From: an uncultured Verrucomicrobia subdivision 3 bacterium
GTDB taxonomy: Bacteria; Verrucomicrobiota; Verrucomicrobiia; Limisphaerales; UBA8199
DNA length: 36,875 nt
Assembly: GCA_903913865.1 (NCBI GenBank)
Contig: CAIWMU010000128.1
Coordinates: 1-36,875 of the forward strand
Direction of reading: 5' to 3'
In this document: positions 2,372 to 33,424 of the stretch, one piece after another
How the letters are laid out: each line of letters begins with the position of its first letter
Position numbering within the stretch: position 1 is the stretch's first letter
Notes under the pieces: generated by a model
Told to the model about the DNA's origin: nothing
What the model saw: the letters and a program-made list of their open reading frames with translations, nothing else
Database searches by the model: none
Translations under genes and position numbers: made by a program

Positions 2372-2823
2372 TGTTTCGTCTTGCTGATCACGTGTATTCC
2401 CTCGATTCGCATGTGTTTGTCGACAGCTTTGCACATGTCGTAAAGGGTGAGGGCGGCGATGCTTGCGCCGGTGAGGGCCTCCATCTCAACCCCGGTTGGG
2501 GCGGATGTCTCGGCGGAGCAGGTTACATCGACGGAGTCGCGGCGGATCTTGAATTCCACGGCGACATGACAGAGGGCGATCGGGTGGCACAGGGGGATCA
2601 GATCGGAGGTGCGCTTGGCGGCTTGAATGGCGGCAATTTGGGCGACGGTCAACACATCCCCCTTGGGCAGGGCACGGGCTTTGAGTGCGCGGATAGTTGC
2701 CGGTTGGCAAACCAGTCTTGCCCCGGCGACGGCGCGGCGGAGCTGGATGGGTTTGGATCCGACGTTCACCATGTGGGCGGATCCAGCCTGATCAAGGTGC
2801 GAAAATGTAATGGGAGGCTTCAT
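2368..2823 (-). CDS. moaC: cyclic pyranopterin monophosphate synthase MoaC
   Basis: A 151-aa partner of MoaA that rearranges the 3',8-cyclised GTP into cPMP. Family signatures are visible: IPLCHP near residue 75, GVEMEALTGAS near residue 111, and DMCKAVDK near residue 128. Length and start (FSHLD..G...MVNV) are normal. The start overlaps the moeA stop and its stop overlaps the mog start, each by 4 bp, which indicates translational coupling. Confidence 0.96.
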   Translation of the reverse strand: MKPPITFSHLDQAGSAHMVNVGSKPIQLRRAVAGARLVCQPATIRALKARALPKGDVLTVAQIAAIQAAKRTSDLIPLCHPIALCHVAVEFKIRRDSVDVTCSAETSAPTGVEMEALTGASIAALTLYDMCKAVDKHMRIEGIHVISKTKQ

Positions 2824-4049
2824 GGAGTGTCATTTGCAGGGATGAACTGGACCTGGGAACCCTGTTCCAGAAACGTTGTTCGGGCGGGGACCCGTATGAG
2901 GGCATTTGCACTGGCGAGGGAGGTCAGGTCGCCAGAGCTGGCCCATCGCAGGGGCATCAAGGCCACAGTGCCATCGGCCAGACTCCAACGTGCGGGCCAG
3001 AAGGTCTCACGTGGACTCCCATCCGCAGGCAGATCGACGGTGAGTCTGGCCGTCTGGAAATCACCCCGGGCCGGGGCTGGCAGTCCTGCAAACGCGTTCA
3101 GTGCCGCGCGGAGGAAGAGGTTCAGGCAGACGAAGTGTGCGAGCGGATTCCCCGGGAGGCCAAACGCGATCACCTGCCCTTTCCGGGCGACGATGAGAGG
3201 TTTGCCGGGGCGTGAGGTGGTCCTGCTGACATGGATGGTGAACCCCAGCTCCACGAGCAACTGGCGGGTGAAATCGTGCTGCCCAACGCTCGCCCCCCCC
3301 GAGATAAGGAGGATGTCCGGTGGGGATTCCGCCAGAGCGGCGCGGAGGGTTGTTGCGATTGCCTCGCGGTCCTCACCAGTGCGCACTTGTATTGGAACGA
3401 TGCCGCGCCGACCCAAAAAAGCCCGCACGAGGGTGGAATTCGTGTCCCTGATGTGTCCCCGCTCCGGTTGCTGCCCGGGAGGCACAATCTCGTTGCCGGT
3501 GGCGAGGTGAAGGACTTCCGGCAGCCGGGACACGAGCGGGTGGGAGCAACCGGCTCCCGCCAGCAGTGCCAGGGCACCCGGCTCCAGGATGATGCCGGAT
3601 TCCACGAGCGTCTGGCCCGCTCTGGCATCCTCACCTTTGAAGCGGATGTTGCGATCTCCGGTGCGGCGGGGGATGGTGAGGATGGGGCCATCGATCCGGG
3701 TCTCCTCCAGCATCACGACCTCCAAGCCTGTTCCGGGGATGGCTCCGCCGGTGGCGATTCGCACCGCCTCACCTTGCTGCAGATCGCGCGGCTTCCAATC
3801 CCCGGCCCGGATCTCATCGACGATAAGGAAGCGGACTGAAGGATCATCGAGTTGCACGGCGAAGCCGTCGACGGCGGAGCGATCAAAGGCCGGTTGGTCC
3901 TCCGGGGCGGCCACTGACTCCCTCAAGACGCGCCCTGTGGCATCGTCCAGCTGAATGCGGACAGGTGCCAGGGGCTGGCAAAGGATCCGCACGAGGGCGA
4001 GCACTTTGGCCGCACTTGCGGCAGGGGGATCTGAGGCGGGGGGGATCAT
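2820..4049 (-). CDS. moeA: molybdopterin molybdotransferase MoeA
   Basis: A 409-aa enzyme that inserts molybdate into adenylated molybdopterin. Visible signatures are FDRSAVDGFA (N-terminal domain), GGAIPGTG...V, the SGGASVGQHDF segment of the MoCF-like domain near residue 250, and AFGLPGNPLA near residue 300. Length is normal. The stop overlaps the moaC start, and the start overlaps the moaE stop by 4 bp. No modABC transport genes accompany it in the window. Confidence 0.95.
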   Translation of the reverse strand: MIPPASDPPAASAAKVLALVRILCQPLAPVRIQLDDATGRVLRESVAAPEDQPAFDRSAVDGFAVQLDDPSVRFLIVDEIRAGDWKPRDLQQGEAVRIATGGAIPGTGLEVVMLEETRIDGPILTIPRRTGDRNIRFKGEDARAGQTLVESGIILEPGALALLAGAGCSHPLVSRLPEVLHLATGNEIVPPGQQPERGHIRDTNSTLVRAFLGRRGIVPIQVRTGEDREAIATTLRAALAESPPDILLISGGASVGQHDFTRQLLVELGFTIHVSRTTSRPGKPLIVARKGQVIAFGLPGNPLAHFVCLNLFLRAALNAFAGLPAPARGDFQTARLTVDLPADGSPRETFWPARWSLADGTVALMPLRWASSGDLTSLASANALIRVPARTTFLEQGSQVQFIPANDTP

Positions 4050-4480
4050 GATGGGGTGCGGGTTTCCGTCTGCTCCTGTTCCAGAGCCCGCCGTTTCCAG
4101 ATGGGGACGTCCTGCTTCAGACGATCCATGAATTCTGCCAAAAGCCCGAAGGCTTCAGCCCGGTGCCGGGCGGCAACGGTGACAACGATGGCAGCCTCGC
4201 CCACGGGAACAATTCCGATGCGATGGACAACGCGCACGGCGAGGCAGGGCCAGCGGGTTGCAAGATCCGCCACGATTTGCCGGATTTGAGTCTCGGCCAT
4301 GGGAGGGTAGGCCTCGTAATCCAGGGCTGTGATGACCCGGCCGGATTCCTCAGGGCGGACGATGCCGTGAAATTGTATCCAGGCACCCGCGGCCCCCCCC
4401 GGGATGGAAGGGAACGGATGCTCTGTGATTGGTCGGTCGGTGATATGGACGAATGTCTCCATTTGAGGTTGTTCAACCAC
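4046..4480 (-). CDS. moaE: molybdopterin synthase catalytic subunit MoaE
   Basis: A 144-aa large subunit of molybdopterin synthase that transfers sulfur from thiocarboxylated MoaD to cPMP. It shows FHGIVRPEESGRVITALDYEAY, VVHRIGIVPVGEAAIVV and VPIWKRRAL; the lysine of the last motif is the conserved active-site lysine. The start at 4480 overlaps the moaD stop by 8 bp. An internal ATG at 4462 (METFVHITD) would also fit the family, so the first six residues are uncertain. Confidence 0.94.
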   Translation of the reverse strand: MVEQPQMETFVHITDRPITEHPFPSIPGGAAGAWIQFHGIVRPEESGRVITALDYEAYPPMAETQIRQIVADLATRWPCLAVRVVHRIGIVPVGEAAIVVTVAARHRAEAFGLLAEFMDRLKQDVPIWKRRALEQEQTETRTPS

Positions 4481-4709
4481 CCGAAACAGGCGGAATCAGC
4501 GCAACTTCGTCCTGGTCTCCAAACAGGGTGTCGGGCCGGGCGTATTCGAGGTTTTTTGCGAGCCTCACCACTCCGCGATGTGGGGCCAGGCCGGGCCGCG
4601 CCTGGATCAGCAGGTTCCACAGGCCGGCGGTATCCACATCGCCGCAGTGCAGCTCCAATTCGGAGCAGGCGGCGGCATCCTTGAGATGTGCGAAGAACAG
4701 TATGCGCAT
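4473..4709 (-). CDS. moaD: molybdopterin synthase sulfur-carrier subunit MoaD
   Basis: A 78-aa ubiquitin-like sulfur carrier. It begins MRILFFAHLKDA and ends DQDEVALIPPVSGG, the Gly-Gly tail that is adenylated and thiocarboxylated. The ATG at 4709 lies 2 bp after the TSUP stop and the end overlaps moaE. A longer open frame in the same phase runs upstream, but the family start is at this ATG. The MoeB-type activating enzyme is not encoded in the window. Confidence 0.93.
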   Translation of the reverse strand: MRILFFAHLKDAAACSELELHCGDVDTAGLWNLLIQARPGLAPHRGVVRLAKNLEYARPDTLFGDQDEVALIPPVSGG

Positions 4710-4711: not shown

Positions 4712-5467
4712 TTATTTTCCAGTGAGTATGAGTTTGCCTGCGGCGATCCAGAGCACCCCTGCCAGACTGCGGCGGAAGGTGGTGTCCGGCCAGCGGTGGA
4801 CGCCGAGATACGTTCCGAGGAGTGCCCCGGTGATGCCCATCACGACCAGAGAGAGGAACATGGGCTGCCAAATGAGCGCCGCGTGGCCCAACCCCGCCAA
4901 CCCGGCGATGGAGTTGACCACAATAAACAGGGCAGAGATGCCACCCGCAACCTTCGGGGCTGCCCAGCCAAGAACAATGAGGATGGGTGTGAGAAACACT
5001 CCCCCGCCGATTCCGGTGAGGCCGGCGAGGAACCCGAGCAACGCGCCGATGAGGAGGGCCAGCGGAATGCCGGGCGGGTGGGGTTGTCCTCCCGTCCGAT
5101 TCCGGCCTCCCCAGCCGAGCATGAGGCCGGCCGCAGCGAGGGCGATCGCGAGCAGGGTCGAGTAGAACCGCCCCTCCAGATGCAACGCACTGCCGATCAG
5201 TGCGCATGGGATTGAGGCTGCTGCAAGGGGGGCAAACAGGTTCCAGTCAAAAAAGCCGGCCCGCCTGAACTGCCAGAAGGAAATCGTGGCGACAAAGCAG
5301 TTCATCCAGAGGGCACCCGGCCGGGCCACCGCCGGGGCGAGGCCCATCAGGGCGGCTGCAGCCAGATAGCCGGTGGCGCCACCGTGACCGACGGACGAAT
5401 ACAGGAAGGCCACCGCACCGATCGAGAGGATCAGCGCTACTTTGTGAATGGCGGTGAGTTCGTCCAC
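4712..5467 (-). CDS. TSUP-family (TauE/SafE) membrane transporter
   Basis: An integral membrane protein of about 251 aa with seven or eight hydrophobic segments and the TSUP signatures SVGHGGATGYLA near residue 25 and GFLAGLTGIGGGVFLTPIL near residue 140. Family members export sulfite, sulfonates or related anions; the substrate here is unknown. No ATG is available: GTG at 5467 and TTG at 5473 are the candidates. I prefer GTG, because it lies exactly 41.5 bp from the centre of the upstream palindrome, matching the geometry at the cytochrome gene. It heads the moaD-moaA unit, so it may be tied to sulfur or anion handling. Confidence 0.85.
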   Translation of the reverse strand: MDELTAIHKVALILSIGAVAFLYSSVGHGGATGYLAAAALMGLAPAVARPGALWMNCFVATISFWQFRRAGFFDWNLFAPLAAASIPCALIGSALHLEGRFYSTLLAIALAAAGLMLGWGGRNRTGGQPHPPGIPLALLIGALLGFLAGLTGIGGGVFLTPILIVLGWAAPKVAGGISALFIVVNSIAGLAGLGHAALIWQPMFLSLVVMGITGALLGTYLGVHRWPDTTFRRSLAGVLWIAAGKLILTGK

Positions 5468-5501
5468 AATCAAAACCTAGCATGGCTCCCGTGGCCATGC
5501 A

Positions 5502-5583: not shown

Positions 5584-6738
5584 TCACTTCAGGTTGGCTT
5601 CGAGAGCCCTGGTAAAATCCGCCTGCAAATCCTCGACATCCTCAATGCCGGCCGAGACGCGAATGAGGCCGTCGCTGATGCCTGCGTGGTGCCGCTCCGC
5701 CGGGGTGAGCCCCTTGTGCGATGTGCGGCTGGGGATGCAAACAAGGCTCTCCACGCCACCGAGGCTCAGGGCGGGAGTCACCAACCGGAGCGCGGCGAGA
5801 GTGGAGTCCACCCGCTGCGGATCACGCAATTCAAAGGAGAGCATCCCTCCAAAGCCGCGCATCTGGCGGCTGGCCAGGGCGTGGTCGGGGTGATGGGGCA
5901 GGCCGGGATAATTGACCGATGCCACTGCGGCGTGGTTGGTGAGGAATCGGGCGAGCGTGGCTGCGTTTTCGTTGTGCTGGCGGATGCGCAGGGTGAGGGT
6001 CTTCATGCCCCGCTCCAGCAAATGGCAGGCGTGGGCGTCGAGCATGCCGCCGTGGTTCATCGCATACGGGGCGATCCGCCCGATGATTTCCGATGAGGAG
6101 ACAACGATGCCGGCATTGAGGTCGCTGTGGCCGTTGAGATATTTGGTGGCACTGTGAACGACCACATCGATGCCGAGCAGGAGCGGGTTTTGATTGATCG
6201 GGGTGGCGAAGGTGTTGTCGGCAATGGAAAGGATGCCGTGGTTGCGGCAGATGCGGCTGATGGCCTCCAGATCGATGATCCGCAGGAGGGGATTGGAGGG
6301 AGTCTCGACATACACCACCCGCGTTTCGGGGCGCAGACCGGCGCTGACCTCGGCAGACGTCCGGGCGAACGACACCTGGATGCCGAGCCGGGCCAACTCC
6401 TGCACGAGGAGGAATGTCCCGCCATAGAGGTCGGTTTGGAACAGGGCATGATCACCCGGTTTGAGGCTTGTAAACAGCAGAGTTGAAATGGCAGCCATGC
6501 CGGATCCAAAAACCAGGGCCGCCTCCCCATGCTCCAGGGCTGCGGTCTTTTCGGCCACCACCTGCTGGTTTGGGGTGTTGAAATAGCGGGGATAAAAGTT
6601 CCGGTTGGCGGGATTGGGGAAGGCATAGGCTGTGGAGGCAAACACAGGACTGCAGACCCCCCCGGTGCTGGGGTCCAGATGGGTGCCTGAGTGGACGCAG
6701 CGGGTGGCCATACCAAAGCGATGGTGGTGAGGTTTCAT
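5584..6738 (-). CDS. Cys/Met-metabolism PLP-dependent enzyme (cystathionine gamma-synthase/lyase family)
   Basis: A 384-aa cytosolic trans-sulfuration enzyme. SATKYLNGHSD at about 196-206 contains the PLP lysine (K199). RYFNTPNQQVVAEKTAALEHG and ETPSNPLLRIIDL are also family signatures, and length is normal. Sequence alone does not separate gamma-synthase, gamma-lyase and methionine gamma-lyase. It begins 36 bp after the ferredoxin stop, so it may end the first operon, and the palindrome for the next unit follows its stop. Releasing sulfur for Fe-S clusters or MoaD would suit the setting, but that is inference. Confidence 0.88.
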   Translation of the reverse strand: MKPHHHRFGMATRCVHSGTHLDPSTGGVCSPVFASTAYAFPNPANRNFYPRYFNTPNQQVVAEKTAALEHGEAALVFGSGMAAISTLLFTSLKPGDHALFQTDLYGGTFLLVQELARLGIQVSFARTSAEVSAGLRPETRVVYVETPSNPLLRIIDLEAISRICRNHGILSIADNTFATPINQNPLLLGIDVVVHSATKYLNGHSDLNAGIVVSSSEIIGRIAPYAMNHGGMLDAHACHLLERGMKTLTLRIRQHNENAATLARFLTNHAAVASVNYPGLPHHPDHALASRQMRGFGGMLSFELRDPQRVDSTLAALRLVTPALSLGGVESLVCIPSRTSHKGLTPAERHHAGISDGLIRVSAGIEDVEDLQADFTRALEANLK

Positions 6739-7053: not shown

Positions 7054-7644
7054 CTATTTTGGAAGGGATAAGGGGTGCGGCAGAGTGATATCAGCCGGGC
7101 TGTTCCAGTTTTCGAAGCAGCCCGCCTCGGCATCCGGGACGGGGTAGGCTCTCACCGCCTGGATACGGAGGCATTCCGCTGCAAAGTGGCGGGCGGAACG
7201 TTGGGATTTGAGCAGACATTCGCGGGCAATGACTCCGCAGCTGCGGGGGTAGATGGCGGCGAGCGGCTCCAACCGCCCGTGCAACTCGGGGACGATGCCG
7301 GTCGAGTCATCACACTGTGCCGCAAGCCTTTGGATCAGGCTGGGGGTGATCAGGGGAAGATCGACAGCGAGAACGAGGAGCAGCGGGGCGAGGACCGTGG
7401 AGAGCGCCCGGTCAATGCCGCTGAGGGGGCCGCAGCCGGGATCGAGATCAAACAGGACCGGGCAGCCAAGGGTTGAATAGTCGGTGCCCGCCCGGCCTGA
7501 GATGAGGACCTCCTGAATGTCCGATTCATGCAGGATGGACAGGGTGCGTGCAATCAGAGGTTTGCCGCCGAGCCAAAGCCAGGCCTTGTCCCGGCCCATG
7601 CGGCGGGACTCGCCACCGGCCAGAATGACGGCGCCAAGCTTCAT
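7054..7644 (-). CDS. mobA: molybdenum cofactor guanylyltransferase MobA
   Basis: A 196-aa GTP:Moco guanylyltransferase that makes the MGD form used by DMSO-reductase-family enzymes such as the alpha subunit of this island. The N-terminal LAGGESRRMGRDKAWLWLGG motif binds GTP, and DLPLITPSLI supplies the metal-binding aspartate region. Length is normal. The start overlaps the MOSC gene stop by 4 bp and its stop abuts the ferredoxin start. MobA next to the alpha subunit supports a bis-MGD enzyme. Confidence 0.94.
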   Translation of the reverse strand: MKLGAVILAGGESRRMGRDKAWLWLGGKPLIARTLSILHESDIQEVLISGRAGTDYSTLGCPVLFDLDPGCGPLSGIDRALSTVLAPLLLVLAVDLPLITPSLIQRLAAQCDDSTGIVPELHGRLEPLAAIYPRSCGVIARECLLKSQRSARHFAAECLRIQAVRAYPVPDAEAGCFENWNSPADITLPHPLSLPK

Positions 7645-8102
7645 GTGGAGGGCCGGAGAATTCCATCAGATAGAATTCGGGCACGCAATCCACCCCGGCC
7701 CTGCAGCCAGTCCAACGCTCCCGGGCCCAGACTCTGGTTCATCCAGGAACAGGGCTTGCACTGCTCAACTCCCTCAAACCGGATTCCCTGGATCTCGAAT
7801 TCAAGGCCGACGAGGGAATTCAAATCTGTTCCACGGGTGAAAACATTGCGGCGGGTGGCGGAAGGCTGGGCGAGGGGGATGTTGAGCTCGCTTCGCAGGG
7901 CGTCGAACACCTCCATTGAGAAGAAGGTGATCTGGCCCTTGTAATTCTCCTTGTAGCCGAAGAAGCGGTCTCCCCGGATGCCCTGGCCCGTGACGCATTC
8001 GGCCTGATCCAGGGCGACAATTGGATGCTCCCCGGCGGGCATTCCCTTGTGTCCGAAAAAATTGTGTCCGGGGGAGATGAACAACTGGCAGACCTGGATC
8101 AT
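7641..8102 (-). CDS. MOSC-domain protein
   Basis: A single MOSC domain of 153 aa. Visible features are the N-terminal ISPGHNFFGHKG segment, GIRGDRFFGYKENYKGQ, RRNVFTRGTDLNSLVG, and the near-C-terminal EQCKPCSWMNQSLGPGAL with the conserved MOSC cysteine. MOSC proteins bind sulfurated Mo cofactor or handle reactive sulfur. Standalone ones within Moco operons are common, but their exact role is not fixed. It overlaps both neighbours by 4 bp, which argues for tight co-expression. Confidence 0.9.
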   Translation of the reverse strand: MIQVCQLFISPGHNFFGHKGMPAGEHPIVALDQAECVTGQGIRGDRFFGYKENYKGQITFFSMEVFDALRSELNIPLAQPSATRRNVFTRGTDLNSLVGLEFEIQGIRFEGVEQCKPCSWMNQSLGPGALDWLQGRGGLRARILSDGILRPST

Positions 8103-9022
8103 ACAACGATGGCAACGGTTGATTTTTTCACACGGTAGACATCATAACACCGGCCGCAGACCCCGTCCATGGCTGCCCAGTGGGGGAACTCGGTCTGGAT
8201 CATGGCCACAGTGTCATCCGCCATCCTTCCTGCCTCGACCCAGGCAAAGGTGGGAAAGCCGCAGAGCGGGCAGGGGGCCCCCGGGCGCGGGCCTGTGGTT
8301 GTCTGAAGCTGGCGCGGGTCGCACACCAATTCCTCCAAAATCTGGTGGGTGGGGTGGGGATGGGACCAGAGGGATTCGAACACGTCGTTCTGCCGGGCTT
8401 CAGGCCAGAAGGCGAAGGCGGCGGAAAACTCCATCCGGCGCTGCTCCCGGGTGGCAATGGTTTGACGCCCCAGGCGGGTCAGGCGCCCATCGATGCTGAC
8501 GTCCCAGAGGGCCCTGTAACGCTCCCGCGCAAGCCGATGCTGGTTGAGAGATGGCCCGACAAGGTGCAGGTCGGGAGCATAGGCGAACCCGGGATCTATC
8601 ATGTCCTGCAGGTGGGTGAATTCGTGGCGCAGAAAGGGGCCGGGATCAGATCCGCCTGCGACGCGCTCCGGTCGCATGGCCACCACACCATTGCGCTCGC
8701 CGGTCTCATTGACATAAAGCTCGGCACTGTCGTCATCCTTGCCCCGGGATTTCCGGAAGGCCAGGATCTTGAGTGCTCCCGGCAGGAGTGGGAATTCCAC
8801 CAGCGGTTCGGTCAGCACTTTTTCAAAGCCCCACTCCCTGAACCATTCCAGATGCAGGTTGAAGAACGCTGTGTTGCGCTCGTCCGGGTCCGAGATGCTG
8901 TATAGTTTCTCACGGTGCCGGTTGAAGCGGGTGATTTGCAGGGCAGGGATGGCCTTGGGCCGACCCGATGTGCAGGCATGAACGACCGCCTCCACAAAAT
9001 CCTCGTCGTAGCGCAGGTGCAT
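8099..9022 (-). CDS. HExxH metalloprotease-like protein with C-terminal zinc ribbon
   Basis: A protein of about 307 aa from the ATG at 9022; an upstream start at 9106 is possible but would overlap the chaperone gene. RHEFTHLQDM carries an HExxH motif (H133, H137), followed by DPGFAYAPDLHLVG. The C terminus has CPLCG and, about 40 residues later, CGRC, a likely structural zinc ribbon. There is no signal peptide. It sits between the TorD chaperone and the MOSC gene, overlapping the latter by 4 bp, so a role in maturing or policing the molybdoenzyme is reasonable. I do not recognise a named family. Confidence 0.75.
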   Translation of the reverse strand: MHLRYDEDFVEAVVHACTSGRPKAIPALQITRFNRHREKLYSISDPDERNTAFFNLHLEWFREWGFEKVLTEPLVEFPLLPGALKILAFRKSRGKDDDSAELYVNETGERNGVVAMRPERVAGGSDPGPFLRHEFTHLQDMIDPGFAYAPDLHLVGPSLNQHRLARERYRALWDVSIDGRLTRLGRQTIATREQRRMEFSAAFAFWPEARQNDVFESLWSHPHPTHQILEELVCDPRQLQTTTGPRPGAPCPLCGFPTFAWVEAGRMADDTVAMIQTEFPHWAAMDGVCGRCYDVYRVKKSTVAIVV

Positions 9023-9039
9023 GGTTCGGGGTTTGACGG

Positions 9040-10005
9040 TCAGACGGCCGCCGGGCTTTGAGGCAGTGCGCCAGGCGGGAGCTGGTTGAGGCCGCAGGAG
9101 TCGCACATGGTCTCAGAGGCGGCATCCACCGGGCGCAGAAGGAGATCCTCACTGCCCGGGGTGACTCCGAACAGGGCGCATTCGGATTCGATGAAGGAGC
9201 GGGTCAGATTTGCGAGTGCCTCCAGCGGGGTGCCGGCGGCCATGCGGGCGAGGCGCCGTGTGAAGGCGGGTGTCCAGCGGCCAAGATGATCACGGAGAAA
9301 CCGCTTCTGGGCATCGCGGCAGATGGATATGGCATCCGCGTTGAGCTGGTTCCCGAGTGCGTAAGCCTCCTTGGCGGTCAGCACACACATGAACTCCAGT
9401 TCCATGCAGATATGGTCGTGGCGCTCATCGGCGTTGCCGGCGACCTCAAGACCGAAGGCCCGGTAAAAGGCGGCAAGATCAGCCAGGCGATGAGGTTGGA
9501 ACAGGGGGTCGGCCTTGATATCCCCGTATTCGATCTCGTTCAGGGGGCAACGACCCCGCGCGGCGTGCCCAAATGCTGCGAGACAGGCTGTCAGGAACGA
9601 GTCAAACGCCTCCGGGACAAGTTGTGCCTGAAAAGTGCGGGCAGCTTCGGTGAGGGCGGGGATGGCCAGAGTATGGATCGCCGGCTGGAGAACCTCGCGG
9701 CAATCACAGTTCGCCATTTTCGTCCAGCGCTCCTCTGTGGGATCCTCGAAGCACAGCGCAAGAAACCTGTGGATGAACGACCGGGCGAGGGCGGCATCCA
9801 TGGCGCTGCCAGGAAGAGATCCGGCACTTGAGGCGGCTGGATCCGGCCCCGTCTGATGGGGTGCGGGAACCGGCCCGGCGAGTGTCGTCTCCGCCTTGTA
9901 ATTGCCGAAGACGGAACGGCCCGGCTTGTCGGAGCGGGCAGCCCACTCGGATTCAGGGGGCTGGACGGTCTCAAATGGAGTTGGCATGTTTGTCGGGTCG
10001 GACAT
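9040..10005 (-). CDS. TorD/DmsD-family molybdoenzyme assembly chaperone
   Basis: A protein of about 321 aa. After a proline-rich, low-complexity N-terminal 70 residues, the helical TorD core follows, with CPLNEIEYG at about 153-161 and a DHICMELEFMCVLTAKEAYAL segment near 197-216, both typical of chaperones for type II DMSO-reductase enzymes. It should bind the apo-alpha subunit and its Tat signal in the cytoplasm until cofactor is loaded. The C-terminal tail contains CDSCG. The start at 10005 overlaps the beta gene by 35 bp; an ATG at 9987 is the alternative. Confidence 0.88.
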   Translation of the reverse strand: MSDPTNMPTPFETVQPPESEWAARSDKPGRSVFGNYKAETTLAGPVPAPHQTGPDPAASSAGSLPGSAMDAALARSFIHRFLALCFEDPTEERWTKMANCDCREVLQPAIHTLAIPALTEAARTFQAQLVPEAFDSFLTACLAAFGHAARGRCPLNEIEYGDIKADPLFQPHRLADLAAFYRAFGLEVAGNADERHDHICMELEFMCVLTAKEAYALGNQLNADAISICRDAQKRFLRDHLGRWTPAFTRRLARMAAGTPLEALANLTRSFIESECALFGVTPGSEDLLLRPVDAASETMCDSCGLNQLPPGALPQSPAAV

Positions 10006-11242
10006 GGAGGGGTTCCTCAACCGTTGTTTCAATGATCTTTGTGCCATCACGGGCGTAGCCGATGATGGTGTCATTGTAGAGTTCAAATTTCTTCCCGCGC
10101 ACTTCCGTTTCAAACACCTTGGGGCCCTCTTTGATCTCGTAACGGAAGCAGATGCGGTGGTTCTTGCCGAACAGTTGCAGGACGGCGAGCAATTCGCGGT
10201 CCGGTGCGGCGTATTTCTCGATCGCAGCATCCACACCGGGCCCGAACATCTGTCTCAGGTAGGGGCGGGGCACCCAGCGCGGCGGGATATAGTAACCGTT
10301 CGGCTCGGTTCCGAATTGGGGATAGAGCGGCAGGGCGACCTTCGCGACGTGCACCAGATAATAGAGGGGGCTTTGACGGTTCTCGATCCAGGTTCCCTGC
10401 TTGCTGAGTTCAATGAGGCCCTGGAGACGGATGTGGCCGATGCAGGCGGCCATGCAGCGGGTCTGCATGGGGAGTCCCCCACCATGCTGGTCCCTGCCCT
10501 CGACGCGGGGAAAGCAGGCGATGCATTTTTCACTGGTACGGGTGGTGCCCCGGTAGAGGCTCTTTTTATAGGGGCAGGCCTCCAGACATTTCCGGTAGCC
10601 ACGGCAGCGCTCCTGATCGATAAGTACAATGCCATCCTCGGGCCTCTTGTAGATGGCGTTGCGGGGGCAGGCCGCAAGGCAGGCGGGATAGGAGCAGTGG
10701 TTGCAAAGTCTGGCCAGGTAGAAAAACCATGTCTTGTGCTGCGGCAGGGCCTCGCCACCCTTGAAATACTGGCCCTTCACCCCCTTCTCGGAACCGGTGG
10801 GGTGGTCCTCATACCGGTTTGGTGCCGACCATTCCTCGTCAGTGGGAAGATAGCCCAGGGCTTTTTGGGCCCCTTCGGGACTGACATTGAGTCGGGCCGC
10901 CTCGAAGATGGTCCTTCCATTGAACTTGCCGTAGGGTGTTTTGGCGCTTTCCCCCTTGGGATCCCAGGTCTGGCCGCCCTGATTATTGCGCTCGAGCAGG
11001 TCCAGTGTTTTCACATCCCAGTGATGTGGATAGCCGCCGTAGGGCTTTGTCTCGACGTTGTTCCACCACATGCTTTCCTGGCCGCGTGAGAACGTCCAGG
11101 TGGATTTGCAGGCCATCGTGCAACTTTGGCAGCCGATGCAGCGGTTGAGATTGAACACAAAGGCAAACTGGTGGTCCGGATACGCCGCTTCATACGGGTA
11201 ATCCATGTCACGGCCGAGTTGCCAGTTAAAGACGTTGCTCAT
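9971..11242 (-). CDS. nxrB: nitrite oxidoreductase/nitrate reductase-type Fe-S beta subunit (NxrB-like)
   Basis: A 423-aa beta subunit carrying electrons from the Mo site to the haem subunit. Four cluster-binding groups are visible: CIGCQSCTMACK, CNHCSYPACLAACP, CRGYRKCLEACPYKK (one cysteine replaced, as at the NarH-type 3Fe-4S site) and CIACFP...CMAACIG. The start MSNVFNWQLGRDMDYPYE, the MWWNNVETKPYGGYP segment and VALPLYPQFGTEPNGYYIPP closely resemble periplasmic NxrB of Nitrospira and anammox bacteria as I recall it. It has no signal peptide and is expected to be carried out with the alpha subunit by Tat. The direction of catalysis cannot be read from sequence. Confidence 0.9.
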   Translation of the reverse strand: MSNVFNWQLGRDMDYPYEAAYPDHQFAFVFNLNRCIGCQSCTMACKSTWTFSRGQESMWWNNVETKPYGGYPHHWDVKTLDLLERNNQGGQTWDPKGESAKTPYGKFNGRTIFEAARLNVSPEGAQKALGYLPTDEEWSAPNRYEDHPTGSEKGVKGQYFKGGEALPQHKTWFFYLARLCNHCSYPACLAACPRNAIYKRPEDGIVLIDQERCRGYRKCLEACPYKKSLYRGTTRTSEKCIACFPRVEGRDQHGGGLPMQTRCMAACIGHIRLQGLIELSKQGTWIENRQSPLYYLVHVAKVALPLYPQFGTEPNGYYIPPRWVPRPYLRQMFGPGVDAAIEKYAAPDRELLAVLQLFGKNHRICFRYEIKEGPKVFETEVRGKKFELYNDTIIGYARDGTKIIETTVEEPLHVRPDKHANSI

Positions 11243-11288
11243 GATTGGGAAGGATTGGAGTTGGGGGCCGTCAGGCGTTGGAGATGAA

Positions 11289-11684
11289 TCATAGGGTGGG
11301 ATGTGGTATGGGGCTGTCCGCAGACCCGGCGGCGGGACGAGCCGCATGGGGGTCGCGGCTGGCCTGGAGGGTTGCTGGTTGGGGCGGACCCCCTGCATCC
11401 GGTCCGGCGCTCCCTGTCTGGAAGACCGCAGAGCGGCCCCAGCGGGCAAAGACTTCAGTGATGCGATCGCGGATGAAAGGCTCCCCGCGCTGTTCCAGAA
11501 CCATGTTCATTCCGAGGTGTTGCGGGTTGCAAAAGAGCTCAAGAACATGGTCCGCACTGTGGCCCATGCGCATGAACTCCTCAATAAAGCACTCGCACAT
11601 GGGATCGATCGTGTCCTCCTCTGTCAGGAGGGCCATTCCGTTCAACTCGAACGGATCCTGGAAATCGAATTCATCCTTGGGCAT
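11289..11684 (-). CDS. conserved small protein between the alpha and beta genes
   Basis: A 131-aa protein. The first 85 residues (DEFDFQDPFELNGMALLTEEDTIDPMCECF, then EEFMRMGHSADHVLELFCNP) look folded and mostly helical, and the DPM...EEF.RMGHS...L.LF.NP pattern recurs in short proteins of anaerobic respiratory operons as I recall. The last 45 residues are Pro/Ala-rich and probably disordered. It has no signal peptide or metal site. Its place between the alpha and beta genes suggests an assembly or stability role, which is inference. Confidence 0.75.
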   Translation of the reverse strand: MPKDEFDFQDPFELNGMALLTEEDTIDPMCECFIEEFMRMGHSADHVLELFCNPQHLGMNMVLEQRGEPFIRDRITEVFARWGRSAVFQTGSAGPDAGGPPQPATLQASRDPHAARPAAGSADSPIPHPTL

Positions 11685-11720
11685 GGTATGGATTGGTGTG
11701 GGAGGTTGGGGTTGCCGGGC

Positions 11721-14700
11721 TTATTCGAACCCCTGGGCTGTGGGGCCGCCACTGCCCGTAAAGGAGCCACCCAGATACTTTTTCATGACATCGTTTTCGG
11801 CATCCGGGGACATTCCGCCAGTGCCGGGTTTCCATGGGCCCTTGCCTCCCAGACCGCCGTCCTCGGCCTTGGTCACGCTGATCAGGCACTCCTTGGGCAC
11901 TGTATTCACGGCGTGATTGTCCGCCTCGCCGCCGAAGATGAAGCCCATGACGGCCTTGGTCTTGTGAAACAGGGTGTCCGTCTGGTGCATGGGCATATGC
12001 CAGTTCCGGGTGACGGATTGCTGGGAGCCGAAACGGAAGTTCGATATGTAACCCTCGTCGGTGAGGGACAAGCCATCCGGCCGGGTTTGCTGTGCCTTCA
12101 CGGTCTTCTCGGTTGCGATGAAGGAACCGTGCTTCATCATGACCACATTGTAGGGATAGGCGCCGTTATAGGTGCAGCGGAGCATGAGACGGCTGACCTT
12201 GTAGAAGGGGTCGGAGGGGGTGGCGCCGAGATAGGGCCGGTCGGCCGGGTTGGCATCGATATACACATAGTCGCCATCACTAATGCCAAGGTCCCGGGCG
12301 GCCTGGGGGTTCATGTGGACCTGATGCTCGCCGACGTTTGGCAGGCGCTTGTCGAGGCGGTAGGGATCACCAAAATTGGAGTTCCAGATGAGATGCCAGT
12401 CCACGTTGGCCCAGGATGAATGGACGCTGTGGCGCGACTTGGGTGTGAGGCAGTAGAACTGGTAGCCGTCCTTCCACAGAAAGTTCGTGGTCTTTTTCGC
12501 CTCAGCCCACGGGAGCTTCACATTACGAACCGTCCGTTCATCCCAGTGCTCTGCATCGAGTGGGATTCCGTAGTCATTGGGGCGGACGAGCGGGTTTGAG
12601 CTGATGATGACGTTGGGGAGGTATGGAGTGGCCTCGGGCCCCTCCCTGTGGACGATGAAATTTTCGCCGCAGGAGACGGCGGTGGGGTCATCGCTGTAGG
12701 AGTGCATCCGGCCGGTGTCGGTGTAAAAGGGATAGGCATCCTTGATCTGCTCATAGAAGGGGATGCGCGGGTAGGAGCGGAACAGCAACAGCGCACCACC
12801 GGGCGGGCCGTATTTGCCGGCCATGATTTCATCCAGTTTGTAGCCGGCGGTCGTGGTGCAGGTGTCGAGCAGGCGCTGGATGTAGATCCCGCGTTTGCCC
12901 TCATGCTCAAATTTGAAGTGGTCGTGAAACCGCTTGTCGCCTGTCAGCCTGCCCAGTGCCGAACCTATTCCGGCGAGGATTGCCAGGTCATCCTTCGAGT
13001 CGTAGAGCGGCTTGATGCCCCCCTTCCAGATTTGCAGAAACGGGTTGGAGCAACTTGCGGTGATCTCCAGATCCTGAAATTCAACCCATGAATTTGCTGG
13101 AAGGCCAAAGTCGGAATATTCGACGGAGGCCGTCATCTGGGTGTCCATCGTCACGATCAACTCCACGTTGGGGTTGACGTTCTTGATCATGCCGTAGGCC
13201 CACTTCGCGTTGTTGATGAGGTTGACGTTGGTGGTGAAGATGGCCTTCGTCGGCGTCGGCATGTGGGACTTCCCGGTGAAGCATTTGCGGCCTTCCTTGG
13301 GTGTCTCAACAATGAGGGGGCGGTCGCCATGGTTCCAGTAGGCCGGTTCCTCATCCTTCGTGTAGGGATGCGCCTTAACATCCCGGCCATGGGCCGCCGG
13401 ATCCAGGTTCTGTTCAAATGGATCCTCGGCAACCCAGCCTTTGAATCCCCAGCCGGTGAGTTTGCTTCCCTGGAACAGGGCCGCCTTGTAATTGCCAGCC
13501 CAGCCATGGCAGCCGGCACCCGGCTTGCCGATGTTGCCGGTGAGCATCAATGGCAGGTAGGCGGCGCGGTTCGCCTCGGTTGCGTGGAACCAGTGGTTGA
13601 TTCCCTCCCCCTGGTGGATGGATGCCGGTTTGATCGTCGCGATGTCCTTCGCCAATTGCTCGATCAGATGTTTCGGGGCGGATGTGATTTCGGAGACGGT
13701 ATCCAGATCATAGTCCTTGAGATGGGTCTGGTAGAGAGTCCATGCGGTGGCCACCTCGACCTGAGTGCCATCCGACAGTTTGAGGAGGCCCTTGAACTCG
13801 AGTTGGGGATCAATGCCGGATTTGGTCAGAGTTCCGCCAACCATGTCCCGCGTCAGGGCTTTGGGTGAGCCGCTCAGGGTGTCCAGGACGACGAAGTCCC
13901 CAAGTTTCTTGTGCTGTTCCTCGGTGAAGCCCTGAACTTTCTTGCTGGGGCTGTCCTCGGGCAACGTGCTGGTGTAATTGGGAAACACCTCGGCTGCGCG
14001 GAGGCGCTTCAGGTTGTCCGTCCGGATGAGCAGGGGGAAATCGGTGAACTGTTTGACGAATGCCTCGTCATACCATTTGTTGTCCATCATTACCCGTGTG
14101 ACCCCCAGCCAGAGAGCGGCATCGGTTGACGGGCGAACGGGGATCCAGTAATCGGCTTTGGTGGAGGGTGCCCCATATTCGGGGGCGATAACGACAATCT
14201 TGGCCCCCCGCTCCATGCATTCGATGAACCAGTGGGCATCTGCCATCTTGTTCTCCACAAGATTCTTGCCGTTCATGATGATGAGCTTGGAATTGCGCAG
14301 ATCGTTGAAATCGCATTCGCTGTTCTGCAACCCATGCACCCAGGGATGGCCTGGTGCCTGATCCCCGTGCCAGGTGTAATTGGACCAGATCCGGCCCGCC
14401 TTCGCGTCCTCCTGCCTGACACCGCGGATGTGGACATCCAGGAGGGCCAAAGAGTTGCAGAGGCGGTACATGCCGTATTTCCCCAGCACGCCAAGGAGGC
14501 CCATCCCGCCGCGCATTTTAATCGTGCGCGTGCCGGCCCCACCCATGTCATCAATCATCTCCTTGGGGTAGCCCTGGGCCTGCAACAGTTTCACCCCGGG
14601 CTCGCCGCTGTAGCGGGTTGCGATGGCTTTCATGGCTCTGGCGATATAATTCAGGGCATCGTCCCAGGCGATCCGCTCGAACTTGTCCGTTCCGCGTGAG

Positions 14701-15194
14701 TCAAAGAGGTATTTGGCTTTCACCTCCGGTGTGAGATCGGGAAAGCCCGCATCCGCCCAGCGTTTCCAACCCCGGCGCACGATCGGATGCTTGAGCCGGT
14801 AGGGTCCATACAGAATCCGGTGGAATGTATAGCCCTTGGCGCAGTGCCTGTTGCCCCAGTTGGCCGAGGCTTTGTTGCCGTAGAGATCGCCGTAAGTCTG
14901 GACGTCATACTCCTCCCCGAGGCGGACAATCACTCCATTGCGGACGTGGGCGGTGATCCGGCAGTTGTGAGTGTCGTTTGGTGCGCAGACCCACGAGAAT
15001 GAGCGGTCATAGGCGTATTGGTTGCGATAGAGTTTTTCCCAATCCCGGTTCGGATAATGGGCCAGTGGATTGGCGGAGCCGCCGGATGTCTGCGCCTGGA
15101 GATGGCGGAGGGGCAGCATCTGGGCGGCGGCCAGACCGGCGCCCACAAGTCCACTGCGCCGGATGAAATCACGCCTGTTCAAGTTGTCGTTCAT
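11721..15194 (-). CDS. nxrA: Tat-exported molybdopterin alpha subunit, NXR/type II DMSO-reductase family (NxrA-like)
   Basis: A catalytic subunit of about 1157 aa that binds Mo-bisMGD and one Fe-S cluster. The Tat signal is NRRDFIRRSGLVGAGLAA, so the active site is periplasmic. The cluster region has C70, C78 (CAPNDTHNC) and C118 (NRHCAKG). The segment WHGDQAPGHPW places D278 at the expected Mo-ligand aspartate. The CxPNDTHxC motif, the EYDVQTYGDLYGN stretch and the length match NxrA-like periplasmic enzymes better than NarG. The start is ATG 15194; a TTG at 15203 is possible. Nitrite oxidation, nitrate reduction or another oxyanion remain open. Confidence 0.88.
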   Translation of the reverse strand: MNDNLNRRDFIRRSGLVGAGLAAAQMLPLRHLQAQTSGGSANPLAHYPNRDWEKLYRNQYAYDRSFSWVCAPNDTHNCRITAHVRNGVIVRLGEEYDVQTYGDLYGNKASANWGNRHCAKGYTFHRILYGPYRLKHPIVRRGWKRWADAGFPDLTPEVKAKYLFDSRGTDKFERIAWDDALNYIARAMKAIATRYSGEPGVKLLQAQGYPKEMIDDMGGAGTRTIKMRGGMGLLGVLGKYGMYRLCNSLALLDVHIRGVRQEDAKAGRIWSNYTWHGDQAPGHPWVHGLQNSECDFNDLRNSKLIIMNGKNLVENKMADAHWFIECMERGAKIVVIAPEYGAPSTKADYWIPVRPSTDAALWLGVTRVMMDNKWYDEAFVKQFTDFPLLIRTDNLKRLRAAEVFPNYTSTLPEDSPSKKVQGFTEEQHKKLGDFVVLDTLSGSPKALTRDMVGGTLTKSGIDPQLEFKGLLKLSDGTQVEVATAWTLYQTHLKDYDLDTVSEITSAPKHLIEQLAKDIATIKPASIHQGEGINHWFHATEANRAAYLPLMLTGNIGKPGAGCHGWAGNYKAALFQGSKLTGWGFKGWVAEDPFEQNLDPAAHGRDVKAHPYTKDEEPAYWNHGDRPLIVETPKEGRKCFTGKSHMPTPTKAIFTTNVNLINNAKWAYGMIKNVNPNVELIVTMDTQMTASVEYSDFGLPANSWVEFQDLEITASCSNPFLQIWKGGIKPLYDSKDDLAILAGIGSALGRLTGDKRFHDHFKFEHEGKRGIYIQRLLDTCTTTAGYKLDEIMAGKYGPPGGALLLFRSYPRIPFYEQIKDAYPFYTDTGRMHSYSDDPTAVSCGENFIVHREGPEATPYLPNVIISSNPLVRPNDYGIPLDAEHWDERTVRNVKLPWAEAKKTTNFLWKDGYQFYCLTPKSRHSVHSSWANVDWHLIWNSNFGDPYRLDKRLPNVGEHQVHMNPQAARDLGISDGDYVYIDANPADRPYLGATPSDPFYKVSRLMLRCTYNGAYPYNVVMMKHGSFIATEKTVKAQQTRPDGLSLTDEGYISNFRFGSQQSVTRNWHMPMHQTDTLFHKTKAVMGFIFGGEADNHAVNTVPKECLISVTKAEDGGLGGKGPWKPGTGGMSPDAENDVMKKYLGGSFTGSGGPTAQGFE

Positions 15195-15199
15195 AAGGT

Positions 15200-16759
15200 T
15201 CAAGGTTCCAGAATCAATTTGTGCCAGTTGCTCACCACTTTTCGACCGTTACGATCACGGTTCTGCCCATCCCACACAGCGAAGGCCACTGGCACCGGCT
15301 TGCCCACGGCGAACTTCACATCTTCAGCCTCCCGGGACTTGAGGTCCCGCACGAGGATCACACTCCAGGAGCCGTCCCGCCAGATGCCCTTGCCCCTGAC
15401 ATTCTGACCCCGGGCAGATTGCGATCTGAGCGTGCCGAATCCGGCTGCATTTGCGTCCTCCACAGACGAGCTGTGGGGGATTGAGACCATGTTTCCCGCA
15501 TCCACAGCGGTGCGGTGGCTCGTGGGAAAATAGGTGTCGACGTGCATGGATGGGTATTTGTCAGCCATGTCCTGCCTGTTGCCTTCCGCCTCCTGCTGCC
15601 AACCGGCTTTCCATTGCCAGAGATTTACCGGATTTTTGGCATCGCCCATCCCCAGAAAGGGAGTCTCTGCGTTCAAGGGGAACTGCAGCGCTATCGCGTC
15701 CTGAAAATCCTGAACCCGGATGGGTGCACCATCCGGCACGGGGTCTTTCCACGTGCAAAGAATCGCAAGACGCTTTCCATCATGCACAGCCCTTACGGAA
15801 ACCGCATAGATGAGATCTTTCTCCGGCCATAAGGGGTTGAGGGTGATGCGGGTTGGGTCCATTCCCTCCCACACGGGATCAGACGGTTCCACCGGGAGCC
15901 TGCCATGGACACGGGGTGCTCTGACCGATCCATCGGCCGGGGCCAGAAGATCGTTGATTTCCACATCCTTCCTGCGGAGTGATTGGATGAAGTGGACGAG
16001 GCACCAGCGCTCAGAGTCGGTCATGACCTTGTTGTCGAAAGCCACCATGGGTGTTCCGGCAAGACCGGTGGAGATGCGGGTGAAAAGATCCCGGCCCGTG
16101 TGGCCGCCCCTGAATGCGCCCGTGTTGAAGTCGCGCGGGGGTAGGAAGAGGCCCTGGGTGTCCTTCAGTGTCGGAGCGTTTGGCCCATCGCCGGCCCCAT
16201 GTTCGCCATGGCACAGAATGCAGTTCAGTTTGGCAAAAAGGCGGCCACCCTCGGCCAGGGCCTGCACTGTGGCGGGCGGCTCAGGCGGGACCTGAATCGG
16301 CTCGGCAAGGGTGTTGCTCTCCTTCGCCAGATCAAAACGGTTGACCCGCAGTCCGGCGGCGTTGGTGGAGGCTGTCAGGTATTTGACATACCGCACCGCC
16401 AAACGACGGTCCTCCTCGGTCAGATACGAGAAACTCGGCATCGAGCTCCCTGGCATGCCCCGGGTGACCGAGTTCAACAGGTCGGCATCCGTGGGCAGGG
16501 CTGTGCCGGCGGTGGATTTGATCTTGAACAGCCCGGCGCTGAAATTGCGCGGCCGCGGGAAAAGCCAGACCGAGGCGGGTCCATTCCCATCGCCGCCCTC
16601 GCCATGGCAGGCAGAGCAATGTTGAGCATATACCACACGTGCACCCTGAAGATCAGGATTCGAAGGCCCATCAGCTGGAGCGCCGGTAACCGCAGCCTCA
16701 CCGGCAGGGCTGAGGCTTAACAGAGCCAGGGATATGGCTAGGATTTTATGAGCTGGCAT
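15200..16759 (-). CDS. exported dihaem cytochrome c with ethylbenzene-dehydrogenase-type haem domain (gamma subunit)
   Basis: A 519-aa protein with a Sec signal (MPAHKILAISLALLSLSPAGEA). Two cytochrome c modules follow: CSACH at 48-52 with M107 in PGSSMPSF, and CILCH at 180-184 with a GTPMVAF methionine. From about residue 270 to the end is a domain like the haem b gamma subunits of ethylbenzene dehydrogenase and related enzymes (IRVQDFQDAIALQFP..., GIWRDGSWSVILVRDL). It is first in the operon and its stop is 5 bp before the alpha start. It probably links the Fe-S beta subunit to periplasmic carriers. No membrane NarI-type subunit is present. Confidence 0.88.
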   Translation of the reverse strand: MPAHKILAISLALLSLSPAGEAAVTGAPADGPSNPDLQGARVVYAQHCSACHGEGGDGNGPASVWLFPRPRNFSAGLFKIKSTAGTALPTDADLLNSVTRGMPGSSMPSFSYLTEEDRRLAVRYVKYLTASTNAAGLRVNRFDLAKESNTLAEPIQVPPEPPATVQALAEGGRLFAKLNCILCHGEHGAGDGPNAPTLKDTQGLFLPPRDFNTGAFRGGHTGRDLFTRISTGLAGTPMVAFDNKVMTDSERWCLVHFIQSLRRKDVEINDLLAPADGSVRAPRVHGRLPVEPSDPVWEGMDPTRITLNPLWPEKDLIYAVSVRAVHDGKRLAILCTWKDPVPDGAPIRVQDFQDAIALQFPLNAETPFLGMGDAKNPVNLWQWKAGWQQEAEGNRQDMADKYPSMHVDTYFPTSHRTAVDAGNMVSIPHSSSVEDANAAGFGTLRSQSARGQNVRGKGIWRDGSWSVILVRDLKSREAEDVKFAVGKPVPVAFAVWDGQNRDRNGRKVVSNWHKLILEP

Positions 16760-17153
16760 TAAAAAAAGCCTAATGCAAGCGGTCAGCAAATCTTTGACCT
16801 GGGTCAAGGATTTGCATTTTGGCAGGAAATTTTAATCCGGATGTTTCGGGTAGCGGGGGATCGATAAAAAACGAACATCAGGCGGCAGGTCAGCCGCAAA
16901 ACTCCGGGCCCGCAGGGCTCAGTTGCAGTGGATTCAGGCAACTTTCCAGCGGCTCTGGACATGGTATCAGCCACACCCGACTTTAAGCACATGCACCAAA
17001 CCGTTGATTTTGGCGGGCGGGTCAGGAACGCTGCGTTTGACTTCCGGCAGGCGCCCCACAAGACTCCTTCGCATGAACTCAATTTCCGGGCGGGAGAATG
17101 TCCCTGTGATGCAGGGCGGGTTTGACGCGGGAGCGGTGCTTGAAGGGACATCC
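16760..17153. promoter_or_regulatory. divergent promoter region between the cytochrome operon and the glycosidase
   Basis: The left 110 bp hold the control sequences of the minus-strand operon: the palindrome at 16794-16807 and, toward the gene, TAGGCT (16772-16767) followed by a T-run next to the ATG. The right part contains only a weakly supported N-terminal extension of the glycosidase frame. GAAGGG at about 17142-17147 is a good ribosome-binding site for the GTG at 17154. I see no RNA gene. Confidence 0.5.
16794..16807 (-). promoter_or_regulatory. CRP/FNR/DNR-type box upstream of the nxr-like operon
   Basis: A perfect palindrome, TTGAC-CTGG-GTCAA on the plus strand, fitting TTGAY-N4-RTCAA. 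Its centre at 16800.5 is 41.5 bp upstream of the cytochrome start codon at 16759, the class II activator distance if the transcript starts at the ATG. Oxygen or nitric-oxide sensing through a CRP/FNR-family regulator would suit a nitrogen-oxyanion enzyme. The regulator gene is not in the window. Confidence 0.7.
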
Positions 17154-19577: not shown

Positions 19578-19637
19578 GAGGATCGAGCGGTGCCCAAGCG
19601 GGTTGCATCGCCTGCTAAAACACGGCAAGCTGGGTTC

Positions 19638-21581: not shown

Positions 21582-21637
21582 CCCGGGCCCCCCTGAACCC
21601 TGCATTTACAGGCCACCGGGTGACTTTCAGCCCGGGT
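21581..21637. terminator. possible bidirectional terminator at convergent gene ends
   Basis: ACCCGGGC at 21581-21588 and GCCCGGGT at 21630-21637 are perfect inverted repeats of 8 bp enclosing 41 bp. They sit exactly at the stops of two convergent genes. The loop is long and there is no T-run, so this is a weak call. Confidence 0.25.
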
Positions 21638-23378: not shown

Positions 23379-23502
23379 GCATAATCTGTGACGGGTGATC
23401 GCTCTTTTCCATTTAATTTTGCATGAATGGAGGCATCAAAAAGTGGCAGACCCCGCCCGCACAAACCCGGGAAGGGTCCGCCTTTGTCCTAAAATCGACC
23501 GG

Positions 23503-33421: not shown

Positions 33422-33424
33422 AAA

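Follow-up and report, generated by a model that had tools for sequence, protein, structure and literature searches.

A nitrite oxidoreductase-type operon with a fused dihaem c/haem b subunit in an uncultured Verrucomicrobiota bacterium

Which enzyme is encoded by a molybdoenzyme operon of an uncultured Verrucomicrobiota bacterium, and in which direction would it run? The question is raised by contig CAIWMU010000128.1 (assembly GCA_903913865.1), of which we analyzed a stretch of 36,875 nucleotides, here referred to as the window. On the minus strand it carries genes for a catalytic subunit (alpha), an iron-sulfur subunit (beta) and a cytochrome subunit (gamma). A preliminary description had called alpha and beta similar to periplasmic nitrite oxidoreductase (NXR). 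Based on our comparisons, the alpha/beta enzyme almost certainly belongs to the NXR clade. By the features tested, it adds one more member to the NXR family, which itself is already known.

Alpha matched the NxrA of Kuenenia stuttgartiensis (PDB 7b04_B) with 1695 bits across residues 8-1147. The runner-up among solved chains was of the perchlorate reductase type (4ydd, 192 bits), and E. coli NarG chains reached 107 bits at most. The gap between 1695 and 192 bits rules out a chance resemblance. Beta matched Kuenenia NxrB (7b04_A) with 605 bits, followed by the next chain with 198 bits. The identity of alpha to the crystallised Kuenenia NxrA was 60.8% (958 columns). For Kuenenia NxrA, identities of about 60% to NxrA of nitrite oxidisers and comammox bacteria, 40% to Nitrotoga and Hydrogenobaculum and about 20% to Nitrobacter-type enzymes, Nar and EbdA have been given (Chicano et al., PMC8387239). 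The value found here corresponds to the first of these levels.

The residues known from the Kuenenia structure are present as well. Ligands of the iron-sulfur cluster FS0 are C73, D77, C81 and C121 (Kuenenia C67, D71, C75 and C115), the substrate asparagine is N76 (N70) and the molybdenum-ligand aspartate is D281 (D275). All six occur in every one of the 89 aligned alphas, among them three diverged proteins from the same phylum with 43-56% identity. An aspartate as FS0 ligand, with a cysteine where Nar and EbdA have a histidine, is a trait singled out for Kuenenia NXR (Chicano et al., PMC8387239). The motifs CAPNDTHNC, NWQLGRDMDYPYE and MWWNNVETKPYG, on which the first assignment had been based, were all found and align with Kuenenia NXR.

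In maximum-likelihood trees with Kuenenia as the characterised NXR reference, alpha and beta grouped with Kuenenia, apart from NarGH, PcrAB and EbdAB. The alpha reference tree was built from 34 chosen loci out of 118 with an alpha match, a number that includes window copies and duplicates. Here the branch holding the NXR rows had a Shimodaira-Hasegawa-like approximate likelihood ratio (SH-aLRT) support of 99, in a quick tree with long branches whose PcrA and EbdA rows were 47% and 33% filled, respectively. The NXR grouping in the beta tree was supported with 100/100; here the program warned that long branches come together in the outgroups. The placements of Kuenenia and of locus L130 differed between the reference tree and a second alpha tree of 91 rows considered below.

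Family models separate the enzyme from its better known relatives. An enzyme of the NarGHI type was rejected: alpha reached 133.8 bits on the narG model (cut-off 1084.15), has a cysteine at the histidine position of Nar (PMC8387239), and a NarI-type subunit, already reported as missing, is absent among the operon proteins scanned. For ethylbenzene dehydrogenase alpha scored 174.5 bits against 2000 on the EbdA equivalog model and stood apart from EbdA in the tree. An enzyme of the Ser, Ddh, Clr or Pcr type was rejected as well, since alpha with 343.7 bits far missed the cut-off (984.75) of the type II dimethyl sulfoxide (DMSO) reductase model TIGR03479 and grouped apart from PcrA. In the preliminary description, a firm grouping with SerA, DdhA or EbdA or a loss of the molybdenum-ligand aspartate had been named as evidence against an NXR; a grouping with EbdA was not seen and the aspartate is kept, with SerA, DdhA and ClrA represented by the model TIGR03479 alone.

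Alpha has a putative twin-arginine translocation (Tat) motif, RRDFIRR, recognised by eye; TatC is encoded in the genome and beta has no apparent leader. Together with the haem c sites of gamma this supports the predicted location in the periplasm.

For gamma, the open reading frame (ORF) starts from a TTG at 16807 and has an ATG at 16759; it encodes a leader of the Sec type (by eye) and exactly two CxxCH motifs. The C-terminal half matched Kuenenia NxrC (7b04_C) with 118 bits and carries the haem b ligands Met387 and Lys523, equivalent to Met155 and Lys305 of Kuenenia. Met387 was kept in all 81 gamma rows with a residue at this position (two rows have gaps) and Lys523 in 83 of 83. The N-terminal dihaem half matched a chain deposited as 'conserved hypothetical cytochrome protein' (PDB 6h5l_B) with 148.7 bits. 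This chain is probably the dihaem partner of a hydroxylamine oxidoreductase (HAO)-like protein of Kuenenia.

Two CxxCH motifs were present in 76 of 83 gamma rows and fewer in seven. Five of the latter (L026, L043, L044, L045 and L064) start at most 460 bases from a contig end, which by our reading leaves too little sequence for the whole N-terminal half. The others were L018 with one CxxCH and L132, whose gamma is free of haem c.

Inside the Kuenenia structure electrons cannot go past haem b; the solved C subunit contains a single b-type haem, and no partner is known to which it would pass electrons next (Chicano et al., PMC8387239). The window gamma differs by its fused dihaem c module, and this covalently attached module would be the next electron stop after the haem b. 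The haem c/haem b fusion is not new in itself, since alt_NxrC proteins of Nitrospina gracilis already combine a haem b domain with one to three haem c sites (PMC3578206). A Tat-exported alpha, a leaderless beta and a TorD-like chaperone are also described for Nitrospina NXR (PMC3578206), and the alpha with its putative Tat motif, the beta and the chaperone of the window would correspond to these. However, Nitrospina has an operon nxrABC with more NxrC copies elsewhere (PMC3578206), whereas the fused gamma was the only EB_dh gene found in the window's own genome.

The operon and the cofactor genes behind it contain the following features, listed in the direction of transcription:

15200..16807, minus strand: gamma, a leader, two cytochrome c domains (two CxxCH) and a haem b domain of the EB_dh/NxrC type (Pfam PF00034/PF13442/PF09459)
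11721..15203, minus strand: alpha, NxrA-type catalytic subunit of 1160 amino acids with Tat motif, molybdenum-bis-molybdopterin guanine dinucleotide site and FS0 cluster
11289..11684, minus strand: protein X, small and undescribed, core of about 85 residues, predicted four-helix domain
9971..11242, minus strand: beta, NxrB-type iron-sulfur subunit without a leader of its own
9040..~10053, minus strand: TorD/NarJ-type chaperone overlapping the end of beta, start uncertain (PF02613 62 bits; TIGR03482 99.5 against a cut-off of 152.3 bits)
8099..9106, minus strand: protein Y, undescribed, with a zincin-like HExxH and a C-terminal CxxC...CxxC site
7641..8102, minus strand: MOSC-domain protein (PF03473 33.9 bits)
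7054..7644, minus strand: MobA-type molybdenum cofactor guanylyltransferase (PF12804 121 bits; TIGR02665 100.6 against a cut-off of 151.85 bits)
5584..6738, minus strand: pyridoxal phosphate (PLP) enzyme of Cys/Met metabolism within the cofactor block (PF01053 410 bits)
4712..5473, minus strand: TauE/SafE-type transporter within the cofactor block (PF01925 110.5 bits)
4473..4709, minus strand: MoaD/ThiS-type protein (PF02597 46.4 bits)
4046..4480, minus strand: MoaE (PF02391 108.3 bits)
2820..4049, minus strand: MoeA (PF03453/PF00994/PF03454)
2368..2823, minus strand: MoaC (PF01967 173.1 bits)
1883..2434, minus strand: MogA/MoaB-type protein (PF00994 97.5 bits)
887..1867, minus strand: MoaA (PF04055 and PF06463)

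The genes are transcribed in the order gamma, alpha, X, beta, chaperone, Y, MOSC and MobA. Taking likely starts, all gaps from gamma through MobA are 46 nt or shorter, and overlaps of 4 nt join the cytochrome to alpha, Y to MOSC and MOSC to MobA. Because of this spacing the region from 16759 to 7054 looks like one transcription unit. A promoter gave no support for the unit, as the sole sigma-70-like site near its start sits on the opposite strand. Farther downstream, the PLP enzyme, TauE/SafE, MoaD, MoaE, MoeA, MoaC, MogA/MoaB and MoaA follow on the same strand. The operon as initially described was thus recovered in its genes (alpha 11721-15203, beta 9971-11242, cytochrome 15200-16759, chaperone from 9040) and not in its extent: the unit is larger, and X, Y, the fused haem b domain and the molybdenum cofactor (Moco) genes had been overlooked.

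Compared with the NXR-ABC of Kuenenia (PDB 7b04; kustd1700/1703/1704), the window shares the cysteine and aspartate ligands of FS0, the asparagine, the molybdenum aspartate, a beta matching over its full length and the Met/Lys haem b domain. The arrangement differs, since in Kuenenia A is followed by two unknown genes, B and C (PMC8387239, PMC6423088), whereas in the window gamma lies ahead of alpha. The unknown Kuenenia genes between nxrA and nxrB are kustd1701 and kustd1702 (PMC6423088), and a 'putative zinc finger' protein is common to the clusters of Nitrospina, Nitrospira and Kuenenia (PMC3578206).

In total, 344 relatives of the operon were found, of which the best 80 were used for the synteny counts. 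None of these 80 carried a Nitrospirota or Nitrospinota name. Co-directional hits had the identical order in all 80 loci. All six genes (gamma, alpha, X, beta, chaperone and Y) were present in 62, and the other 18 were mostly cut by a contig end. Where a locus had enough sequence, the cytochrome (71/71), beta (73/73) and the TorD gene (63/63) were always found. The spacing is variable, with about 4 kb between the cytochrome and the alpha that follows it in L046. X was found by tblastn in 75 of the 77 loci with room for it and by profile in the remaining two. Y was found in 56 of 58 such loci, the exceptions being L018 and L038. Both proteins hold their operon places across many phyla.

Alignments comprised 62 of 78 prepared rows for X (A1) and 53 of 58 for Y (A2), the latter 58 being already without rows having stops or an odd length. 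The core of X has about 85 residues, with M29, E36 and G67 invariant in the 62 rows. Its AlphaFold2 model is a four-helix domain with a predicted local distance difference test (pLDDT) score of 89.5. Pfam and NCBIfam gave no match for the window X; across the 62 members no family matched more than five, E 0.0015 being the best value reached, and Foldseek found no fold at E <= 0.001. As a candidate, the FF domain (Z 5.4, root mean square deviation (rmsd) 3.7, 64 residues aligned) was too weak for naming a function.

Y was modelled with a pLDDT of 93.8. Its cysteines C251, C254, C289 and C292 were kept in 52 of 53 rows. The HExxH is degenerate, with the first histidine in 42 and the second in 48 of the 53 rows. 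Since these histidines are less well kept than the cysteines, an obligatory protease function of Y is improbable. No Pfam or NCBIfam family was found for the window protein, and across the 53 members each family matched one member only; the best of these, a ferredoxin-type match (E 4e-8), probably stems from an ORF fused with a ferredoxin domain. The Foldseek search of Y was likewise without a match at E <= 0.001. In the structure comparison an HExxH domain (8s5f; Z 5.0, rmsd 4.8, 160 aligned) was again too weak for naming a function, and the entries below it were mostly, not solely, metalloproteases.

At E <= 1e-50, alpha was found in 28 of 293 searched genomes of the window's order (18 of 154 high-quality genomes; 19 of 118 genera) and in 4 of 387 genomes drawn evenly from its phylum, the window's own included. 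Two of 13 listed rows of its own family carried the operon, and the one listed genome of the same genus did not. The presence within the order is patchy. Among viral contigs two pattern matches and no relative were found, plasmids not having been searched.

The alpha tree of 91 rows left out L084-L129 (except L107, L109, L114 and L117), L133, L134 and partial alphas. Here the Verrucomicrobiota formed one clade of 30 rows with a support of 100: 24 rows with a named phylum, all of them Verrucomicrobiota, and six rows made up of the window and unnamed loci. This agrees with the affiliation proposed earlier. Omnitrophota and Acidobacteriota formed one group each, and the Planctomycetota require four changes. 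As the 13 groups cost 13 changes against a minimum of 12, the 80 relatives that were kept seem only rarely to have passed the genes from one phylum to another.

Some loci were peculiar. The Verrucomicrobiota assemblies VER2 and TGS_VER2 each carried two NXR operons on separate contigs (L005 and L010; L008 and L020). Broken alpha copies were present in G497 (L124/L129) and G589 (L127), one with in-frame stops and the other as two overlapping frames, due either to decay or to assembly error. Titles at odds with the alpha tree were 'Pseudomonadales' for L045, which is nested in Phycisphaerae, and those of two metagenome-assembled genomes (MAGs) named after cultured species, L019 and L076 (Akkermansia muciniphila, Gemmatimonas phototrophica); these three are perhaps mislabelled or misbinned.

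The hallmark residues are all kept in L132 (43%), L130 (56%) and L131 (55%), three diverged loci from the same phylum, which differ from the window in that Y was found in none. In L130, gamma has two CxxCH, and alpha and beta are separated by a protein X scoring 40 bits. L132 has the order A-B-C-D and lacks, besides haem c in gamma, a detectable X; its order resembles nxrABCD of Nitrosediminicolota, Chloroflexota and Nitrotoga (PMC11009272). Moco genes follow this operon, with MoaA, MoeA and MoaC recognised by similarity and both MOSC and MobA by eye. L131 matched none of five profiles, and its alpha stops at the contig end.

Alpha and NuoG were the only PF00384 proteins found in the window's genome. 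The adjacent Moco genes therefore probably serve the NXR-type enzyme. Of the 24 Verrucomicrobiota loci, 11 yielded a MOSC and 10 a MobA gene; of the 56 other loci, none yielded MOSC and 6 yielded MobA. Only 4 of the 24 Verrucomicrobiota loci show Moco genes near the NXR in the sequence fetched, which for many of them stops early. L007, from a genome of the window's own family, has NXR and Moco genes in an identical layout.

Divergent from the operon, on the plus strand (16923-25892), lie genes for an 884-amino-acid protein that matched nothing in Pfam, for an FAD oxidoreductase and for a sulfatase carrying an SGSH_C domain. These neighbours would be compatible with a polymer-using heterotroph. 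They are followed on the plus strand (26305-34400) by Type I-E-like CRISPR-Cas genes (Cas3, Cse1, Cse2, a PF08798 CRISPR protein and a CT1975-type Cas7) and, at 33021 within this region, an ORF of 459 amino acids without Pfam family.

To assign a direction, the respiratory genes have to be considered. The window's genome is 95% complete with a contamination estimate of 2.08%. It encodes NuoG of complex I and, next to a cbb3-type oxidase with FixO, a multihaem cytochrome, an iron-sulfur protein and NrfD of the alternative complex III (ACIII) type. Three COX1 genes were found, the two besides the cbb3-type one in frames of 604 and 766 amino acids. A second nitrate reductase was not found in a genome-wide search with PF00384, NarI not being part of that search. 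A single 597-amino-acid frame passed the NIR_SIR cut-off and may be a nitrite or a sulfite reductase.

The same searches were made in 22 other Verrucomicrobiota genomes carrying the operon. Eleven of them had NrfA above 240 bits (in three the scanned frame is interrupted by a stop), four had NirK over cut-off, eight an HAO-like protein (PF13447) over cut-off and six a RuBisCO-family protein. The NrfA cut-off of Pfam was passed by something in 20 of the 23 genomes, the window's own included. We read matches of up to 38 bits as other multihaem cytochromes and counted the 11 above 240 bits only. The NirS model PF02239 (cut-off 25.5 bits) was passed in 12 of 23 genomes; in the window's genome by three short pieces of 25.7-29.3 bits, read as other propellers. 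At least one of NrfA, NirK and HAO-like protein was present in 17 of the 22 relatives (union counted by hand). These possible nitrite-reducing enzymes lean towards nitrate use in the group.

Taken together, our preferred explanation, which appears slightly favoured overall, is a nitrite:nitrate oxidoreductase of the Nitrospira/Nitrospina/anammox type that is soluble in the periplasm, has an electron outlet of its own and mostly respires nitrate. The adjacent moa/moe/mob genes would supply Moco and the TorD chaperone would help to insert it, with X and Y as putative assembly factors. Alpha would be exported via Tat, carrying beta along. The molybdenum site would interconvert nitrate and nitrite, and electrons may pass between the iron-sulfur chain and the Met/Lys haem b and on through the two covalent c haems to a soluble cytochrome c. 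When oxygen is scarce, the predicted route in a heterotroph would run mostly from quinol via ACIII, cytochrome c and the enzyme to nitrate. With nitrite and oxygen both present, nitrite oxidation towards the oxidases would be possible.

As to the direction alone, respiration had been named as the simpler guess in the preliminary description and is still a guess; facultative nitrate respiration is a call that we regard as evenly poised. It is favoured by the lack of RuBisCO, the sulfatase neighbour and the 17 relatives with candidate nitrite-reducing enzymes. Kuenenia NXR is able to work both ways (PMC8387239), and for the Planctomycetota branch the authors likewise could not assign a direction from sequence (PMC10732223).

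Several points weigh against nitrate respiration. No full-length NrfA was found in the window's genome: there were two matches of about 21 bits, one of which exceeded the Pfam cut-off (24.1 bits) only together with its neighbours (31.3 bits in an 800-amino-acid frame). Neither NirK nor an HAO-like protein (PF13447) was found in it, so nitrate respiration would end at nitrite; nitrite would be the end product or would be burned with oxygen. Absences in a genome of 95% completeness are soft, and RuBisCO, of which none was found, was the sole test for autotrophy. The figure of 17 in 22 stands without a control set of relatives lacking NXR, and nitrite oxidisers can also carry NirK (PMC11009272). 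Finally, the oxidases and the NXR pedigree suit nitrite oxidation equally well.

Net nitrite oxidation is the strongest competitor. A hetero- or mixotroph would use nitrite as an extra donor, via the dihaem module and cytochrome c to the haem-copper oxidases. The NXR pedigree, the three COX1 genes and the failure to find a full-length nitrite-consuming respiratory enzyme in the window's genome speak for it; moreover, NxrA is favoured by the authors for the Planctomycetota branch (PMC10732223), and nxr genes were highly transcribed in floodplain soils, a finding not tied to this phylum (PMC8141241). With no RuBisCO, with the sulfatase and other heterotroph-type neighbours and with many relatives combining the operon with possible nitrite-reducing enzymes, we hold it to be a serious yet less probable explanation than nitrate respiration.

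Enzymes acting on other oxyanions such as chlorate or selenate belong to the wider type II DMSO reductase group. Such a substrate appears improbable here, given the NXR-specific aspartate ligand of FS0, active-site residues identical to Kuenenia, the position apart from PcrA and EbdA and scores well under the TIGR03479 and EbdA cut-offs. That the operon is a bin contaminant foreign to this Verrucomicrobiota is more improbable still: its rarity in its own family and absence from the listed same-genus genome would fit, but the clade of 24 named Verrucomicrobiota rows, the 28 genomes of the order, the identical NXR and Moco layout in L007 and the low contamination estimate stand against it.

NXR in Planctomycetota MAGs has already been published (PMC10732223), and that paper contains no mention of 'Verrucomicrobi-'. 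Four of our loci (L041, L044, L049 and L051; three with Phycisphaerae titles and one with a Sumerlaeota title) have names from the OFTM isolate series, as do MAGs of that paper, which treats 19; they stand among the window's relatives in the tree and have 69-72% identity to the window alpha. Genomes with NXR are common in floodplain soils (PMC8141241). A report of NXR in Verrucomicrobiota was not found in the literature searched, which lay outside preprints and most subscription papers; in the accessible form of one gene-count table by phylum (PMC8809388) the columns could not be assigned.

The widest possible reading would be an overlooked guild of heterotrophic Verrucomicrobiota and other uncultured phyla which use the six-gene operon to turn nitrite into nitrate in the periplasm, with a dihaem-wired gamma and an assembly depending on X and Y. 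We regard it as doubtful. X, Y, the fused gamma and a caution for marker surveys are the points that deserve the attention of specialists, with X and Y as fresh leads: conserved, unannotated genes that may bear on the assembly of NXR enzymes. The fusion in gamma would offer a built-in answer to where electrons exit the NXR haem b. NXR genes serve as metagenome markers of nitrite oxidisers. With a Verrucomicrobiota branch in oxidase-bearing genomes of heterotroph type, such markers may either hide new nitrite oxidisers or lead to nitrate respiration being misread as nitrification.

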